From positions 1 to 64,000 of the forward strand of contig JABIFY010000082.1 of assembly GCA_018650465.1 (NCBI GenBank): a DNA stretch of 64,000 nucleotides, read 5' to 3'. Made by a program: the position numbers and the translations under genes. The notes beneath the pieces are model-generated. The model saw only the letters and a program-made list of their open reading frames with translations. It did not search any database and was not told where the DNA came from. Numbering within the stretch: position 1 is the first letter of the stretch; every line of letters begins with the position of its first letter. Below, piece after piece: positions 5,192 to 22,662 of this stretch. This DNA is from Alphaproteobacteria bacterium. GTDB taxonomy: Bacteria > Pseudomonadota > Alphaproteobacteria > UBA2966.

Positions 5192-6088
5192 TTAACTTAC
5201 TGAGAGCCGCCGACAAATTTCATCCAGTTGCTCCAGAGTTTGGTACAGGATATGAACCTGACCACCGCTGTCGCCCTTATGATCGATTTCTATCTTCAAA
5301 CCGAGGGCGGCCGAGATGTTGGCTTCCAGAGCCAAGGTATCTGCGTCCTTGCCAGGCAAGGGCTGATGGCGGCTGGCCTGCTTGCTGGAGCCTTCTTTCT
5401 TTACCAATTTTTCGACCTGACGCACATTCAAGCCTTTTTTGACCGCTTCCCGTGCCATGGCAAGAGGATCGGATGCGCCCAGCAATGCCCGTCCGTGGCC
5501 GGCAGAAAGACTGCCATCTTCGATCAAAGCCTTAATTTTGTCTGGTAGAGCCAGAAGACGCAGGGTGTTGGCGATATGACTGCGGCTTTTGCCAATGACA
5601 CCAGAGAGATATTCCTGGGTATGGCCGAATTCATCCATCAAACGCTGATAACCATCGGCCTCTTCCAAAGCAGACAAATCGGATCGTTGCACATTCTCGA
5701 CAATTGCGATTTCCAGTGCCTGAACGTCATCCATGTCGCGCACAACAATTGGGACCTGATGTAACTGCGCCCGCTGGGCAGCACGCCAACGGCGTTCGCC
5801 GGCAATGATTTCAAATTCGGTTTCGCTGCCGGCCTTTGCATTGCGCACCAGGATGGGTTGAATAATGCCCAGCTCCAGGATGGAGGCCTCCAAAGACGCG
5901 AGGTCTTCTTCCGAAAAATGCTGGCGCGGCTGCCAGGGATTGGGCCGTAACTGATCGATCGCAACTTCACGCGTTGCCCGCGGCGCACTGTCATCGGTGT
6001 TGGCAACGGTGACCGCCGCTGGTGCATCGCCCAGCAAGGCAGATAGTCCACGACCAAGACTTTTGCGTTTTCCCTCTTCAGCCATCAT
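5192..6088 (-). CDS. parB: Chromosome-partitioning protein ParB
   Basis: 298 aa. ParB binds parS sites, spreads as a CTP-dependent clamp and stimulates ParA to move the origin to the new pole. Features in order: an N-terminal basic/glycine segment GRGLSALLG that contacts ParA (residues 11-20), the ParB/Srx domain with the CTP-binding motif GERRWRA (about residue 96), a helix-turn-helix HTQEYLSGVIGKSRSHIANTLR (about 143-165), and a C-terminal dimerisation domain. The open frame runs further upstream into parA. I chose the ATG at 6088 (or the adjacent ATG at 6085) because a GGGGAAG ribosome-binding site sits just before it and the protein then begins like its relatives. It follows parA by 25 bases, and two parS sites lie nearby. 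Confidence 0.95.
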   Translation of the reverse strand: MMAEEGKRKSLGRGLSALLGDAPAAVTVANTDDSAPRATREVAIDQLRPNPWQPRQHFSEEDLASLEASILELGIIQPILVRNAKAGSETEFEIIAGERRWRAAQRAQLHQVPIVVRDMDDVQALEIAIVENVQRSDLSALEEADGYQRLMDEFGHTQEYLSGVIGKSRSHIANTLRLLALPDKIKALIEDGSLSAGHGRALLGASDPLAMAREAVKKGLNVRQVEKLVKKEGSSKQASRHQPLPGKDADTLALEANISAALGLKIEIDHKGDSGGQVHILYQTLEQLDEICRRLSVS

Positions 6089-6113
6089 CTCTTCCCCGTA
6101 TTCAGTCTTTTTC

Positions 6114-6986
6114 TCAAGCTGCACGACTGCGTTCCCGTTTAAGCATTTCGCTGGCAAGCTGGATGTAAGCCTTGCTGCCGGCACATTCATGATCATAAAG
6201 CAGCGCCGGTTTACCATAGGACGGCGCTTCGGAAATTTTCACATTCCGCGGAATGACTGTTTTATAAACTTTGTCGCCGAGGAACTCACGGACATCATCT
6301 GCAACCTGTCCTGAAAGGTTATTGCGTTTGTCAAACATAGTCAGAACCACGCCTTTAATATGCAGCTCCGGATTAAAGGCAGCACTCACCCGTTCAATGG
6401 TGCGTATCAACTGGCTTAAACCTTCCAGGGCAAAGAATTCACATTGTAGCGGCACCAATACTGAATGTGCGGCCGTCAAGGCGTTCAGGGTCAACAAGCC
6501 CAGCGACGGCGGGCAGTCGATGAGAACATACTGATAATTCTGAACAGTGTTTTCCATGGCATCGCGCAAACGATAGCTGCGGCGTTCAATGTCGACAAGC
6601 TCCAACTCAGCCCCGGATAAATCAACGGTCGATGGAATAATATCCAGGCCCGGAATGCGGCTGCGAAACAGGGCCTGATCAAGTGTGGCAAGTCCGGTCA
6701 ACACTTCATAGGTCGAGGTTTCCCGTTGGGCACGATCAACGCCCAAGCCAGTACTGGCATTACCTTGCGGGTCAAGATCAACAATCAGAACCTTGCAACC
6801 AACAGCCGCCAAAGCTGTCGCCAGGTTTATGGTCGTAGTGGTTTTGCCAACGCCACCCTTTTGATTTGCAATCGCCAGAATCTGTGGACCTGGTGCAGCA
6901 GCACGGCTTGTCTCCTGAGTCGAAACCTCAAGGACTTCAACCTTGTCATCCATATCCGGATCATCCATATCATCTGCCTCTGTCAT
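6114..6986 (-). CDS. parA: Chromosome-partitioning ATPase ParA
   Basis: 290 aa from the ATG at 6986. ParA is a Walker-type ATPase that binds DNA and drives segregation of ParB-bound origins. The deviant Walker A motif KGGVGKTTTTINLA follows NQ in the classic way, and Walker B is DCPPSLGLLTLNAL. The start was chosen because a GAGGGG ribosome-binding site precedes it by about nine bases; the frame stays open to 7085, but that would overlap rsmG. Even with this start the protein has about 37 extra N-terminal residues, very acidic (DDMDDPDMDD), ahead of the core ILAIANQKGG. Most chromosomal ParA proteins start only 5-15 residues before the P-loop strand. It lies in one block with rsmG, mnmG and parB. 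Confidence 0.95.
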   Translation of the reverse strand: MTEADDMDDPDMDDKVEVLEVSTQETSRAAAPGPQILAIANQKGGVGKTTTTINLATALAAVGCKVLIVDLDPQGNASTGLGVDRAQRETSTYEVLTGLATLDQALFRSRIPGLDIIPSTVDLSGAELELVDIERRSYRLRDAMENTVQNYQYVLIDCPPSLGLLTLNALTAAHSVLVPLQCEFFALEGLSQLIRTIERVSAAFNPELHIKGVVLTMFDKRNNLSGQVADDVREFLGDKVYKTVIPRNVKISEAPSYGKPALLYDHECAGSKAYIQLASEMLKRERSRAA

Positions 6987-7056
6987 TTTAACAGGCCCCT
7001 CGCCCAGGCTACCAATCAAGCCACTAATTGTCGGATATCGGCAGCCATAAGAACAC

Positions 7057-7704
7057 TCAATGCGACGTAACTTGTAACACGACACTCTGGTCTTGTGTGC
7101 GGCTAGGCCACTTTTTTATTATGGAATCATCAAATTCTAACAGATGTTCCAACTCGAAATCAACATCTTGTCCCTTTGGGAACAGGCATACTGTATTTTG
7201 TGATCGAAAAGGCGCTGCCCAAGCAAGCAATTGATCGGTTTTTGCCAATGCCCGGGCAGATATAAAGTCAACTTGACCCGGATTGTCTTTTTGCCCTGCG
7301 AGCTTTTCAATGCGGCAGGTGTGAAAAATGACATTCGCGCCGGTCTCTCGTGCAACTTCCCGCATAAAAGTGCATTTCCGGGCGTCGCTTTCCACCAGAT
7401 GCATCTGCCCCACGCCCATAATTGAAAGCACCAGACCGGGAAAACCCGCGCCACTGCCCAGGTCAAGCCAGGTACTTTCATTCAAGGGCCGGATATTCCT
7501 GCCCTGCTCAGCGACAACTGCTTTGGCAATATCATAAATCTGGGCGCTATCCAGCATGTGCCGCTGCCACAAATCGGGCAAGGTATTCTTGCTGACAAGA
7601 TTGATGGCCTTCTGCCACTTCACCAGAAGATCTGCATAGACCTTCAGCCGGTCCAATGTTTCACGTGAAACATTGGTTGCGGATTGGAAGCCATCAGGGG
7701 TCAT
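7057..7704 (-). CDS. rsmG: 16S rRNA (guanine527-N7)-methyltransferase RsmG
   Basis: 215 aa. RsmG (GidB) uses S-adenosylmethionine to methylate G527 of 16S rRNA. The SAM-binding motif reads WLDLGSGAGFPGLVLSI, followed by LVESDARKCTFMREVARE, as in the family. The start is the ATG at 7704; a TTG one codon earlier is less likely. The gene is 24 bases from mnmG in the usual mnmE-mnmG-rsmG-parA-parB order. Its N-terminal codons (NVSRET, residues 11-16) are written over a perfect parS site, so this stretch of protein is constrained by DNA function too. Confidence 0.95.
   Translation of the reverse strand: MTPDGFQSATNVSRETLDRLKVYADLLVKWQKAINLVSKNTLPDLWQRHMLDSAQIYDIAKAVVAEQGRNIRPLNESTWLDLGSGAGFPGLVLSIMGVGQMHLVESDARKCTFMREVARETGANVIFHTCRIEKLAGQKDNPGQVDFISARALAKTDQLLAWAAPFRSQNTVCLFPKGQDVDFELEHLLEFDDSIIKKWPSRTQDQSVVLQVTSH
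7657..7672. promoter_or_regulatory. parS centromere site 1, inside rsmG
   Basis: The 16 bases TGTTTCACGTGAAACA match the bacterial parS consensus exactly. The perfect palindrome extends four more bases on each side (7653-7676, 24 bp). It lies about 12.4 kb from oriC and about 0.7 kb from parA, as expected for a ParB loading site. Confidence 0.95.
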
Positions 7705-7728: not shown

Positions 7729-9663
7729 TCAGGCACTGCGCCGGTTCGGGTCGAGATGGTGGCCCCTCTTCACATGGACCAACAGAGCCGTCAATGCAGC
7801 AGGCGTGACCCCTGAGATCCTGGCCGCCGCCCCCAAAGTTGCTGGCCGGGACGCAGCAAGTTTGTTTCGTACTTCGTTGGACAATGAACCGACAGAAGCA
7901 TAGTCGAGGTTTTCCGGCAGTTTCAAATCTTCGTCCCGGCGGAAGGCTTCAATGTCGGCAACCTGTCGATCCATATACCCGGCATAGAGAGCATCGGTCT
8001 CCAATTGCTCCACCGCCCGACCAGAAAAAGATTTGAATTCCGGCCAGATATTAAAGATGTCTTCTATATCTATATGGGGATAAGCCAGCAAATCCACAAC
8101 CGATCGCCGCACGCCATCCAGATTGACTTTCAGTCCATGCTTCTGTGCTTCATTGGGTGTAATCAATGACTCGGCTGCCAATGCCCGGATGGCGTCCAGT
8201 TCATTTCTCCACAATCCCCAGGCCGCCGTTCGTTCAGCTTTGACGCAGCCGAAGGCAATACCGCGCATCGTCAGGCGCTGATCTGCATTATCCGCCCGCA
8301 GTGTCAGTCGATATTCGGCACGTGACGTGAACATCCGGTATGGCTCTTCCGTGCCACGCGAAATCAGATCATCAATCATCACGCCGATATAGGCTTCGGC
8401 CCGGTCAAGAATAAGAGGCTCTCCCCCACTCGCCGCACTGGCGGCGTTCAAGCCGGCCATCAACCCTTGTGCGGCGGCTTCTTCATATCCCGTGGTGCCA
8501 TTGATCTGACCCGCCAGATACAGGCCTGGTGATTTCAGGGATTGTAAACTCGCTGACAATTCGCGGGGGTCGACAAAGTCATACTCAATAGCGTAACCCG
8601 GCCTCAGGATCACTGCATTTTCCAGACCCGGAATGGTCTTCAACAGGCCGCGCTGCACATCTTCAGGCAGGGACGTGGAAATACCATTGGGATAAACCGT
8701 GTGATCATCCAGTCCTTCCGGTTCCAGAAAGATCTGGTGGCTGTCGCGTTCAGCGAAACGAACGACCTTGTCTTCTATGGAGGGACAATAGCGCGGACCA
8801 GTACTTTCGATTTTGCCACTATACATCGGCGCGCGGTGAATATTGGCCCGGATCAACTCATGCCCGGCTTTTGTCGTACCCGTAATATGACAAGAAATCT
8901 GCGGTATTGTGATTTCAGTACTCAAAAAGGAAAACGGCACCGGTGGATCATCAGCAAGTTGTTCGTCCAGCTGGCTATAATCAATGGTTCGCCCATCCAG
9001 CCGCGGCGGCGTCCCGGTTTTCAGTCGCCCCAGACGCAGACCCAATGACCGCAAGGTATTCGAGAGACCCCTGGCAGGTGCCTCCCCGGCACGACCGGCT
9101 GGTGTGGTTTCTTCGCCTATATGAATAAGACCGTCAAGAAAGGTTCCGGTTGTCACAACGACGGCCTTGGCAGAAACAGATATGCCATCGCCAGTACGCA
9201 CGCCGGTGACCCGGTTGCTGCCGTCATCACTTATAATAAGGTCTTCAACGCCGCCTTCAGCAATAGACAGGTTTTCCCGCCCGGCCAACTCGGTTTGCAT
9301 GGCCTGGCGATATAGCTTGCGGTCGATCTGGGCCCGGGGACCGCGCACGGCTGGGCCCCTGCGTCGGTTCAATAAACGAAACTGAATACCGGCCTTGTCC
9401 GCCATTCGGCCCATAATGCCGTCAAGCGCATCAATTTCCCGCACCAGATGCCCCTTGCCCAATCCACCTATAGCCGGATTGCAAGACATTTCGCCAATGG
9501 TATCGGCGCGATGGGTCAACAACAGTGTATTGGCCCCCTGCCGAGCTGATGCCGCTGCCGCTTCACTGCCCGCATGGCCGCCGCCGACGATGATGACATC
9601 GAAGTGCTGGCCCTCGGATAGTATGAGTGGCTGGATCGGATTCTGAAATGGGTTCTGGCTCAT
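7729..9663 (-). CDS. mnmG: tRNA uridine-5-carboxymethylaminomethyl synthesis enzyme MnmG
   Basis: 644 aa. MnmG (GidA) is an FAD protein that, with MnmE, modifies U34 of several tRNAs at the wobble position. The dinucleotide-binding motif [20 protein letters not shown] is near residues 23-42. The family signatures [17 protein letters not shown] and the cysteine motif [10 protein letters not shown] follow within the first 85 residues. [14 protein letters not shown] and [19 protein letters not shown] (about residues 440-460) are further MnmG hallmarks. Length is slightly above the usual 620-630 aa. It lies between mnmE (158 bases upstream, with a parS site in the gap) and rsmG, as in most alphaproteobacteria. 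Confidence 0.97.
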
Positions 9664-9761: not shown

Positions 9762-9777
9762 TGTTTCACGTGAAACA
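9762..9777. promoter_or_regulatory. parS centromere site 2, between mnmG and mnmE
   Basis: A second exact copy of TGTTTCACGTGAAACA, here in intergenic DNA and without the longer flanking symmetry of site 1. It is 2.1 kb from site 1 and about 10.4 kb from oriC. Two closely spaced exact sites near parAB make ParB loading here very likely. Confidence 0.95.
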
Positions 9778-18836: not shown

Positions 18837-19877
18837 TCAATAATTCCGGATCAACTCTGACAATTCTTCAACATGCTCCGGCGGTGTCTGCGGCACAAAT
18901 CCGTGGCCCAGGTTAAAAATAAAGGGTCCATTACCCAGGGTTTCCAGAATACGATTTGCTTCCCTGCGCATGGGTTCGCCACCAGCCACCACCAATAGTG
19001 GATCAAGGTTACCTTGAACCGCGCAAGAAGTCTGCACATTATCGCGGGCCCATTCCAACGGCACGGATGTATCCAGGGAAACCGCGTTTACCCCGGTTTG
19101 GGCCGCAAAGTTTGCATAACCCGCCCCGGCCCCGCGCGGAAAGCCAATAACCGGAATATCTGGGTATTTTGCCCGTAAATTGGCAACGATCTGTTTAACG
19201 GGTGCGATACACCATTTATTAAACTCGGTTTCCGACAGGGCGCCGGCCCAGGTATCAAAAATCTGAATAACCTCGGCACCGGCCTCGATCTGGGCCAGCA
19301 GATATTCTGTGGTCGCCTCAACCAGCATATTGATCAGGCGCGCAAAACCCGCTTCGTCGGAGAAAGCCCAGCTTTTGGCGTTGGCGAAATCTCGACTGCC
19401 CTGTCCCTCCACCATATAGGTCGCCACGGTCCAGGGTGCTCCTGCAAAGCCGATCAAGGTCACTTCCGGCGGTAGCTCCCTACGCAGACCTTTTAACGTC
19501 TCAAAGACGGGCTGCAGGTGTTCTGTGATGCGCCCTGTTTCCAGGCGATCAAGATCAGCGCTGGACCGGACGGGCTCCAGCTGCGGGCCTTCCCCTTCCT
19601 TGTAAGCCAGCGTCTGCCCCATGGCATCAGGAATGACCAGGATGTCAGAGAACAAAATCGCCGCATCCATGTGATAACGCCGGATCGGCTGTAAGGTGAC
19701 TTCCACCGCCAGCTCCGGATTGTAACATAGCGACAGGAAATCTCCGGCCTCAGCCCGGGTGGCGCGATATTCTGGCAAATATCGTCCGGCCTGGCGCATA
19801 AACCAGAAAGGCGGCCTTGCCTGCTTCTCTCCTGCAAGCGCTTTGAGCATGTTTTTATCGTTCGTTGGTGCGTTCAT
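18837..19877 (-). CDS. hemE: Uroporphyrinogen decarboxylase
   Basis: 346 aa. HemE removes four carboxyl groups from uroporphyrinogen III to give coproporphyrinogen III. Both family signatures are clear: PPFWFMRQAGRYLPEYR (about residues 22-38) and GFAGAPWTVATYMVEG (about 140-155), plus DAAILFSDILVIPDAMG with the catalytic aspartate. The ATG at 19877 was preferred; a GTG at 19904 would add nine residues. It transcribes away from oriC, and its promoter must lie in the AT-rich edge of the origin, as in Caulobacter where hemE borders the origin. Confidence 0.97.
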   Translation of the reverse strand: MNAPTNDKNMLKALAGEKQARPPFWFMRQAGRYLPEYRATRAEAGDFLSLCYNPELAVEVTLQPIRRYHMDAAILFSDILVIPDAMGQTLAYKEGEGPQLEPVRSSADLDRLETGRITEHLQPVFETLKGLRRELPPEVTLIGFAGAPWTVATYMVEGQGSRDFANAKSWAFSDEAGFARLINMLVEATTEYLLAQIEAGAEVIQIFDTWAGALSETEFNKWCIAPVKQIVANLRAKYPDIPVIGFPRGAGAGYANFAAQTGVNAVSLDTSVPLEWARDNVQTSCAVQGNLDPLLVVAGGEPMRREANRILETLGNGPFIFNLGHGFVPQTPPEHVEELSELIRNY

Positions 19878-19910
19878 TATTTCTGCTGCTTCCCGGTTAC
19901 CCACAGTCCC

Positions 19911-19955
19911 CTTACATATACTATATTTATACTAATAAGGTTGTTGTAGTAGTAG
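19911..19955. other. AT-rich unwinding element with DnaA-trio-like triplets
   Basis: 19911-19938 is nearly all A and T (ACATATACTATATTTATACT...), unlike its surroundings. Next to it TTGTTGTAGTAGTAG (19941-19955) holds three in-phase TAG triplets. Read on the minus strand the order is GC-rich DNA, then CTACTACTA, then the AT-rich run, the arrangement described for DnaA-trio unwinding elements in other bacteria. Assignment by pattern only. Confidence 0.55.
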
Positions 19956-20035
19956 ATCCCTGTGTGTTGTGGGGAGAACTCGCGCTCCCGAACTTATCCC
20001 GCATTTCGCAGGTGCGACAACGTGGCTGCGCCCCC

Positions 20036-20044
20036 TCTGTATAA
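20036..20044 (-). promoter_or_regulatory. Candidate DnaA box (TTATACAGA)
   Basis: One mismatch to TTATNCACA, on the minus strand, inside the predicted origin. Confidence 0.5.
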
Positions 20045-20160
20045 CTTCGGGGGAAGCCCGCGACAACCCGCAGACATTGGCAGATTTGTGCGCCCCAACC
20101 CTGTGATCAAGTTTTCAGGAATAGTGGGGGTAACATCGATTGAGGGGCCCAATTCCAGAC

Positions 20161-20169
20161 TTATCCAGA
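20161..20169 (+). promoter_or_regulatory. Candidate DnaA box (TTATCCAGA)
   Basis: One mismatch to the strong box TTATCCACA, in the middle of the predicted origin. Confidence 0.6.
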
Positions 20170-20270
20170 AGCTGCACAGATCCTGGTTTTTTTCCTGCAC
20201 ACCGGGGCGAATTGCTTATGGACCTAAGGTCAAGGTGCATGGAATTTTGTGGATTGTGAAATAAGGCCAG

Positions 20271-20279
20271 TTATCCCCA
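20271..20279 (+). promoter_or_regulatory. Candidate DnaA box (TTATCCCCA)
   Basis: One mismatch to TTATCCACA. It is one base away from the triple GANTC cluster, so DnaA binding and methylation could influence one another. Confidence 0.6.
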
Positions 20280-20280
20280 T

Positions 20281-20300
20281 GATTCACGTGACTCAGAATC
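20281..20300. promoter_or_regulatory. Triple GANTC (CcrM) methylation-site cluster
   Basis: GATTC (20281), GACTC (20290) and GAATC (20296) occur within 20 bases. GANTC is the target of the alphaproteobacterial cell-cycle methylase CcrM. The first two sites are arranged symmetrically about ACGT, giving an inner TCACGTGA palindrome. It directly follows a DnaA box. Confidence 0.8.
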
Positions 20301-20364
20301 GGTGGTTGGAGAATGAATTATGACCGCTGTCACTCCGGCAACCCTGACATTGCTTCTCTTCGTC

Positions 20365-20470
20365 ATGCCGGACTTGATCCGGCATCTACGCGGCAGGATT
20401 GGGCGCAGTGCCACGAGACGATATGGTGCCTAAAATATTCGAAGCATGGACCCCGCATCAAGTGCGGGGT
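20365..20470. repeat. Pair of REP-like palindromes left of hutD
   Basis: ATGCCGGA-CTTGA-TCCGGCAT (20365-20385) and ACCCCGCA-TCAAG-TGCGGGGT (20450-20470). Each has perfect 8-bp arms and a 5-base loop. The loops are reverse complements of one another, so the two units face opposite ways, like a BIME pair. Palindromes with a CTTGA loop are common between genes in many alphaproteobacteria. Confidence 0.85.
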
Positions 20471-20673
20471 GACATTGATCTTTTCAGCATCGCTCCTGCA
20501 CAAACCCCGTTCAACAAAAACCATCCACGAACAGACCACGGGGTCATGTGGCCAAGTCGCGAACCAAATTTACGCGAAGATATTTAAAAGCTAACACGCG
20601 CCATTGAGGCGCGCAGGCGCAAGCGCCGCTTGAGCGGCATATCAAACCTCCCTGGAAGGGAGATTTGGAAAGA
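20456..20673. repeat. Left arm of long imperfect inverted repeat around hutD
   Basis: About 215 bases that reappear as the reverse complement at 21385-21601. Recognisable blocks include AAACCCCGTTCA, AACAGACCACGG, GTCATGTGGC, GCTAACACGCGCCATTGAGG and TCCCTGGAAGGGAGATTTGG. Inside the arm are smaller hairpins (CGCGCC-ATTGA-GGCGCG; CAAACCTCCCT-GGA-AGGGAGATTTG with one mismatch). I judge the arms to be roughly 80-90 percent identical by eye. Confidence 0.85.
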
Positions 20674-21384: not shown

Positions 21385-21601
21385 GTCTTTCCAAATCTCC
21401 CTTCCAGGGAGATTTGATATTACGCTCAAGCGCCGCTTGCGGCTGCGCGCCTCAATGGCGCGTGTTAGCTCATAAGAAACTTCGCGTGAATTTGGCAAGG
21501 AACTGTGCCACATGACTCCGTGGTCTGTTGGTGGAGGGTTTTGCTGAACGGGGTTTCTGCAGAGCTGATGCCAAAAAAACCGGCGTCACTCCGGGCTTGA
21601 C
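21385..21601. repeat. Right arm of long imperfect inverted repeat around hutD
   Basis: Reverse complement of 20456-20673. It starts at the base after the hutD stop. An internal perfect hairpin (CAAATCTCCCT / AGGGAGATTTG, 21391-21415 region) could end hutD transcription. Confidence 0.85.
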
Positions 21602-21685
21602 CCGGAGTCTCAGCAGCCCTTCCATCTCTTCATAGGCAATTGATTTTTGCAGGCTCGCCAGAGACTCCGGGTCGGGGCCCGGAGT
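21588..21685. repeat. Pair of REP-like palindromes right of hutD
   Basis: ACTCCGGG-CTTGA-CCCGGAGT (21588-21608) and ACTCCGGG-TCGGGG-CCCGGAGT (21664-21685). They are of the same type as the pair at 20365-20470. The rest of the 402-base gap up to ppsR (21686-21786) holds no feature that I can name, though the ppsR promoter must be there. Confidence 0.8.
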
Positions 21686-21786
21686 GACGAAGTAAAGAGG
21701 GGCCGGAGAGACGACGATACATAATATCGCAATCGCACAAATATTCCGGGGCTGTGCGCTCTCCCTCGCCATGCTATCCTCCACCC

Positions 21787-22662
21787 ATGACAGAACCAAA
21801 ACAGTTCCATCTTCATCTCGTTTCGGACGCCACGGGCGAAACGCTGATATCTATCGCCCATGCGGCGATTGTGCAATTTGAAGACGCCGACCCCATCGAA
21901 CATACCTGGGCGCTTGTGCGTTCGGTGCCGCAAATGGAAAAAGTGTTGGCGGAAATCAAGGACAAGCCCGGCCTTGTGATGTTCACGCTGGTCGATAAAG
22001 AAATTCGGCGCATTCTGATCAACGGCTGCCTTGATCTTGGCGTGCCTTGCGTGCCGGTGATGGATACGGTGATGGCGGCCCTGTCGACCTTTCTGGGCTC
22101 AAAAACCGTGGATCGGCCGGGCATGCAGCACGTCATGAATGCGGAATATTTTCATCGCATGAATGCCATGAGCTACACCCTCGCCCACGATGATGGCCAG
22201 GGCGTGGGCAATCTGGCTTCGGCGGATATTGTATTGCTGGGGGTCTCGCGCACCTCCAAAACGCCGACCTCTATCTATCTCGCCAATCGTGGCCTGAAGG
22301 TTGCCAATGTGCCCATGGTGCCTGAAGTGCCACCGCCGGCTGAGCTCGAAGATATTGGCAGCATCGAAGATACCGACGGTCCATTAGTTGTGGCGCTGAC
22401 CACCAGTCCCGAGCGCCTGGTGCAGATCCGGCGCAACCGGTTGCTTGCCCTGCATGAGGAAAAAGAGACCAGCTATATCGACCTCGACATTGTGCGCGAG
22501 GAAGTTAAAAAGGCGCGCAAGATGTTTTCGGCCCGCGGTTGGCCGGTGATCGATGTGACGCGGCGCTCTATTGAAGAGACCGCTGCCGCTATTCTCAACC
22601 TTTATAATGACTATCGACCTGAAGGGGCTCGGCGCTCGGATACCGCGACGCATGGTTGGTAA
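21787..22662 (+). CDS. ppsR: Pyruvate, water dikinase regulatory protein (DUF299)
   Basis: 291 aa. A bifunctional serine/threonine kinase-phosphorylase that switches PEP synthase or pyruvate phosphate dikinase on and off. It starts with the family signature FHLHLVSDATGETL. The P-loop-like motif is LGVSRTSKTPTSIYLANRG (about residues 156-174), and the C-terminal SARGWPVIDVTRRSIEETAAAI is conserved. The start is the ATG at 21787. This gene borders oriC on the right in many alphaproteobacteria (RP001 in Rickettsia), which is one of the main reasons for placing oriC here. Its end overlaps maf by 11 bases. Confidence 0.95.
   Translation: MTEPKQFHLHLVSDATGETLISIAHAAIVQFEDADPIEHTWALVRSVPQMEKVLAEIKDKPGLVMFTLVDKEIRRILINGCLDLGVPCVPVMDTVMAALSTFLGSKTVDRPGMQHVMNAEYFHRMNAMSYTLAHDDGQGVGNLASADIVLLGVSRTSKTPTSIYLANRGLKVANVPMVPEVPPPAELEDIGSIEDTDGPLVVALTTSPERLVQIRRNRLLALHEEKETSYIDLDIVREEVKKARKMFSARGWPVIDVTRRSIEETAAAILNLYNDYRPEGARRSDTATHGW

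Follow-up and report, generated by a model that had tools for sequence, protein, structure and literature searches.

Genes and features of the locus

The window (the whole stretch of DNA analysed, 64,000 nt) carries three GANTC sites within 20 bp, located in what its sequence features indicate to be an alphaproteobacterial chromosomal oriC of the hemE type. The features of the locus are as follows (coordinates are those of the window).

5192..7085, minus strand: parB (5192–6217) and parA (6114–7085)
7657..7672, no strand: perfect parS TGTTTCACGTGAAACA
9762..9777, no strand: perfect parS TGTTTCACGTGAAACA
18837..19904, minus strand: hemE (uroporphyrinogen decarboxylase), origin-flanking gene; Pfam URO-D, E = 1.9e-126
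19880..20302, no strand: conserved oriC block; conservation with the congener stops just past the GANTC cluster, and the GC skew changes sign here
19897..19905, plus strand: DnaA-box-like TTACCCACA, at the start of hemE
19910..19960, plus strand: AT-rich stretch, probably the unwinding element, and after it the DnaA-trio-like GTTGTTGTAGTAGTAG; recognisable in the family
20161..20169, plus strand: DnaA-box-like TTATCCAGA, overlapped in the congener by a fourth GANTC site (TTATCCAGAATC)
20271..20279, plus strand: DnaA box TTATCCCCA, one mismatch to TTATCCACA, identical in the congener; ends one base before the GANTC cluster
20281..20300, no strand: cluster of three GANTC sites (GATTC, GACTC and GAATC), retained in the congener (G001)
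21754..22662, plus strand: ppsR-type kinase/pyrophosphorylase, which together with hemE flanks the origin in relatives; PF03618, E = 3.5e-89

The initial annotation had placed the cluster at an origin of replication, and the surroundings agree: hemE adjoins, parAB and parS lie nearby, DnaA boxes and an AT-rich element are present, and the GC skew flips sign, from −0.076 (18–20 kb) to +0.087 (20–22 kb). Three near-consensus DnaA boxes fall in the region, as compared with 0.4 expected in the 3-kb locus. Octamers of the GTAGTAGT type, resembling the DnaA-trio (for the concept see PMC8287927), show strong enrichment in the hemE-upstream DNA of 117 related loci. A second exact copy of TTATCCCCA (8075–8083, minus strand, inside gidA) is probably due to chance, 0.8 being expected in the window.

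To the left of the cluster lies hemE on the minus strand and, farther left, parB, parA, gidB, gidA, trmE and rho; to the right lie hutD, 485 bp away, and then the ppsR-type gene. In other genera of the family, as read from the sequence, little DNA separates the oriC block from the start of the ppsR-type gene. In the window hutD is flanked by inverted repeats (20449–20673 and 21386–21609; 157 nt at 87% and 74 nt at 73% identity). An 86-bp part of this repeat has five more copies in the genome, so that hutD together with its repeats appears to have been inserted between oriC and ppsR in this genus.

A tight GANTC triple in a GANTC-poor genome

The arrangement reported in the initial annotation, with GATTC, GACTC and GAATC packed into 20 bp one base past TTATCCCCA, was confirmed from the window sequence: positions 20271–20300 read TTATCCCCATGATTCACGTGACTCAGAATC, and the sites start at 20281, 20290 and 20296. 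Base pairing of GATTC with GAATC in a hairpin found no support (z = 0.53).

One GANTC per 256 bp, the frequency against which the cluster had been judged, turned out to be too generous an expectation, since the motif is depleted in this genome. The window contains 69 GANTC sites versus 236 ± 14 in shuffled sequences. The initial annotation had suggested counting beyond the window; in 455 kb (about 10% of the genome, a few contigs, window included) we found 544 sites, or 1.20 per kb, with an observed to expected ratio (O/E) of 0.32 relative to shuffled sequence. Thus GANTC is avoided. Under-representation of GANTC in genomes, with intergenic DNA enriched relative to coding DNA, has been described previously (PMC8725594, PMC8116508).

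The triple at 20281–20300 is the tightest in the 455 kb sampled (the runner-up spans 43 bp), and its exact spacing occurs once in the genome. At the sampled density the number of triples within 20 bp expected in the 880-bp hemE–hutD intergenic region is ∼0.00017, and among 5000 composition-matched shuffles of this region 3 contained a triple this tight. Across the whole genome (4.8 Mb) ∼0.9 such triples would be expected; it is therefore the position in oriC that makes this one notable.

We compared the locus with that of the sole congener available, a single genome whose HemE is 90% identical. There the cluster reads GATTCAGGTGATTCAGAATC and retains all three GANTC sites; the two differences affect the N position of GACTC, the second site, and the spacer, which reads CAGGTG instead of CACGTG. 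The cluster is conserved, but the conserved block shows only these 2 changes over about 56 bp, so retention of the three sites is, on its own, weak evidence for selection on GANTC. Similarity drops directly after the cluster. No match to the exact element was found in other genera, whose origins have GANTC sites elsewhere; the sites therefore change place between genera, yet several of them continue to be present.

The methylase and its possible readers

The genome encodes a single canonical CcrM of 367 aa, which has a RAMA domain and matches 6pbd, the structure of Caulobacter CcrM, at E = 9e-163. Its gene adjoins rnhB, with mutY nearby (both named from translations), and the protein is 97% identical between this genome and the congener. 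The initial annotation had named three observations that would speak against a methylation switch; two of them, absence of CcrM and lack of conservation of the cluster, did not occur.

Control through GcrA, also proposed there, did not hold. The Pfam model gave no GcrA match in this genome even at E ≤ 10, or in any of the 15 genomes of the order (this one and 14 order-mates); the same search does find Caulobacter GcrA. The GcrA route is therefore unavailable here, unless the genome encodes a GcrA that has diverged beyond the reach of the Pfam model. For SeqA, the best match in this genome had E = 0.65, below the cut-off.

The combination of a CcrM (RAMA) match and no GcrA match was seen in G000, G001, G003–G005 and G007–G014 of this order and, outside it, in G035, G037, G043, G045, G047 and G057, from several families. 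In G002 and G006, of the same family, the canonical CcrM match is missing as well.

GANTC sites at hemE-side origins across the class

To see the locus in a wider setting we used hemE-upstream regions of 117 Alphaproteobacteria. GANTC density rises from ∼1.5 per kb to 4–6 per kb within the last 600 bp upstream of hemE. With coding regions assigned by a simple ORF criterion, the O/E is 1.53 in hemE-upstream intergenic DNA, as opposed to 0.55 in intergenic DNA elsewhere in these loci and 0.39 in coding DNA. Triples within 25 bp occur in 10 of the 117 regions versus 0.25 in shuffles (∼40-fold), and triples within 70 bp in 24 regions versus 7. Elsewhere in the intergenic DNA of these loci no triples within 40 bp occur at all, and control windows at other offsets have few GANTC triples. 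The excess and clustering on the hemE side, set against depletion in other intergenic DNA, suggest selection for the sites. We found no statement of this class-wide breadth and tight clustering in the literature searched, with subscription journals mostly outside the search.

The closeness of GANTC to DnaA boxes stressed in the initial annotation is not a general property of these origins. Across the class a GANTC site lies within 6 bp of a DnaA box in 14 of 117 regions, and chance placement gives 13.3. Overlap of GANTC with the DnaA-like words GAATCCCC or GANTCCACA upstream of hemE shows no clear excess; GANTCACA is mildly over-represented (16 observed, 8.2 expected).

CcrM-negative relatives, in which no canonical CcrM was detected, have a similar GANTC excess upstream of hemE (34 versus 24, in only eight genomes with a usable region), so the excess is perhaps partly unrelated to methylation. 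Two of the eight belong to this family, next to a CcrM-positive genome from their own genus, and may have lost CcrM recently; one assembly is 86% complete.

A proposed CcrM-marked origin element

We propose that the 20281–20300 cluster, at the outer edge of the origin, is a CcrM-methylated element that marks replication status, and assign to this reading a probability of about 0.5. In its favor are the position, the density beyond chance, the presence of a CcrM gene, retention in the congener, the raised O/E and the tight triples on the hemE side, and the extra chromosomes that Caulobacter forms when CcrM is over-expressed (PMC3973325). Against it stand the normal control of initiation in Caulobacter cells lacking CcrM (PMC3973325), the chance-level closeness of GANTC to DnaA boxes across the class and the GANTC excess in CcrM-negative relatives. 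That CcrM methylates the adenines of the three sites is predicted with high confidence. Each copying of the origin would then leave the sites hemimethylated until CcrM acts late in the cell cycle, a step in which we also have high confidence. With moderate confidence, three sites packed beside a DnaA box would make local DnaA binding or DNA bending dependent on methylation, and a freshly copied origin would thereby be distinguishable from an old one. Since neither GcrA nor SeqA was found, the methylation state would be read directly or via an unknown protein. An effect of methylation on DnaA is plausible; a role of the cluster as a switch of origin firing, as put forward in the initial annotation, is a reasonable hypothesis.

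Origin GANTC sites together with CcrM are already known from Caulobacter, and the modest twist here is their occurrence without GcrA. Several GANTC sites are present in origins of C. crescentus and close relatives, as reported in PMC3973325 with reference to Shaheen et al. 2009. The likeness to the C. crescentus origin thus includes a hemE-side alphaproteobacterial oriC, CcrM and multiple origin GANTC sites; the differences are that here three sites are packed in 20 bp at the outer edge, that GcrA was not found and that no CtrA-type TTAA-N7-TTAA motif, allowing up to one mismatch, occurs in the 3-kb locus. Assignment to the GcrA/CcrM regulatory module was rejected, GcrA not having been found.

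In E. coli oriC the GATC/Dam/SeqA system likewise involves an origin cluster of adenine methylation sites that become hemimethylated upon replication. The locus described here differs in methylase and motif and has fewer sites, and Dam/SeqA-like sequestration was rejected on the SeqA result given above. Origins of the repABC type are GANTC-rich (PMC6090056), and in A. tumefaciens the CcrM level affects RepC-dependent ori2 but has little effect on DnaA-dependent ori1 (PMC11514494). These share with our locus the presence of GANTC at an alphaproteobacterial origin, and replication from A. tumefaciens ori2 is sensitive to CcrM level; however, they are second origins that are driven by RepC and work in part via GcrA, whereas the origin in the window is a main origin of DnaA type.

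A further idea, speculative and in our estimate distinctly unlikely, concerns the order as a whole, which has CcrM and would either have lost GcrA or never had it. Origin methylation might here tune DnaA loading directly, or a reader of hemimethylated DNA, as yet unknown, might bind it, giving SeqA-like once-per-cycle control of the main origin. Whether CcrM controls DnaA-dependent initiation was asked in Caulobacter, and the answer was no. The question could be put again more cleanly in a lineage with canonical CcrM, without GcrA and with a conserved triple next to a DnaA box, where effects on transcription mediated by GcrA drop out.

Alternative explanations

Methylation of the cluster could be a passive mark, with GANTC kept for sequence reasons or under lax constraint and initiation unaffected. 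We regard this as possible, if on the unlikely side. Caulobacter cells without CcrM show normal control of initiation, for which CcrM is thus dispensable (although over-expression of CcrM leads to extra chromosomes; PMC3973325), and both the chance-level closeness of GANTC to DnaA boxes and the excess in CcrM-negative relatives fit a passive mark. Lack of coding constraint alone is nonetheless insufficient, because intergenic DNA elsewhere in these loci has the low O/E and the lack of tight triples described above.

Alternatively, the unit TGANTCA-NG-TGANTCA could be a tandem site for an unknown dimeric DNA-binding protein, or a weak DnaA-like array, in which GANTC is incidental. The first two sites are indeed 7-bp palindromes in both species, and the mismatch-free pair occurs once in the genome. 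GATTCAC contexts are ∼2.4 times commoner among upstream GANTC sites (27 of 732) than in shuffles (47 of 3106), and both GATTCAC and the mildly over-represented GANTCACA resemble weak DnaA boxes. Yet the third site, GAATC, does not conform to the 7-bp unit and is retained as well; TGANTCA is not favoured among hemE-upstream GANTC sites of other lineages (25 of 365); and clusters in other origins differ in their flanks, with GANTC as the common feature. This explanation seems to us rather doubtful.

An improbable option is that the cluster serves ppsR, hutD or hemE as a methylation-sensitive promoter element, similar to those at known CcrM-regulated promoters, and has no origin role. CcrM does act mainly on transcription in Caulobacter (PMC3973325), and GANTC sites are found a short way upstream of ppsR in the family's other genera. 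The cluster, however, is retained regardless of its distance to hutD (485 bp in the window; ∼1.3 kb to the homologous stretch in the congener), and GcrA, the known reader at promoters, was not found.

Finally, the initial annotation had correctly counted a 13 of 16 base match to parS (three mismatches) across the first two GANTC sites, but a degenerate, ParB-bound parS is extremely improbable and was rejected: the CACGTG core is destroyed by the spacer change to CAGGTG in the congener, so the resemblance is probably chance, and perfect parS sites are present twice, at 7657 and 9762, in the usual place near gidA and parAB. Hybrid parS/GANTC words were also seen near hemE or parS in relatives, namely TGTTTCACGTGAGTCA, TGACTCACGTGAAACA and TGATTCACGTGAAACA (loci L061, 2751–2766; L046, 10720–10735; and L069, 10426–10441).
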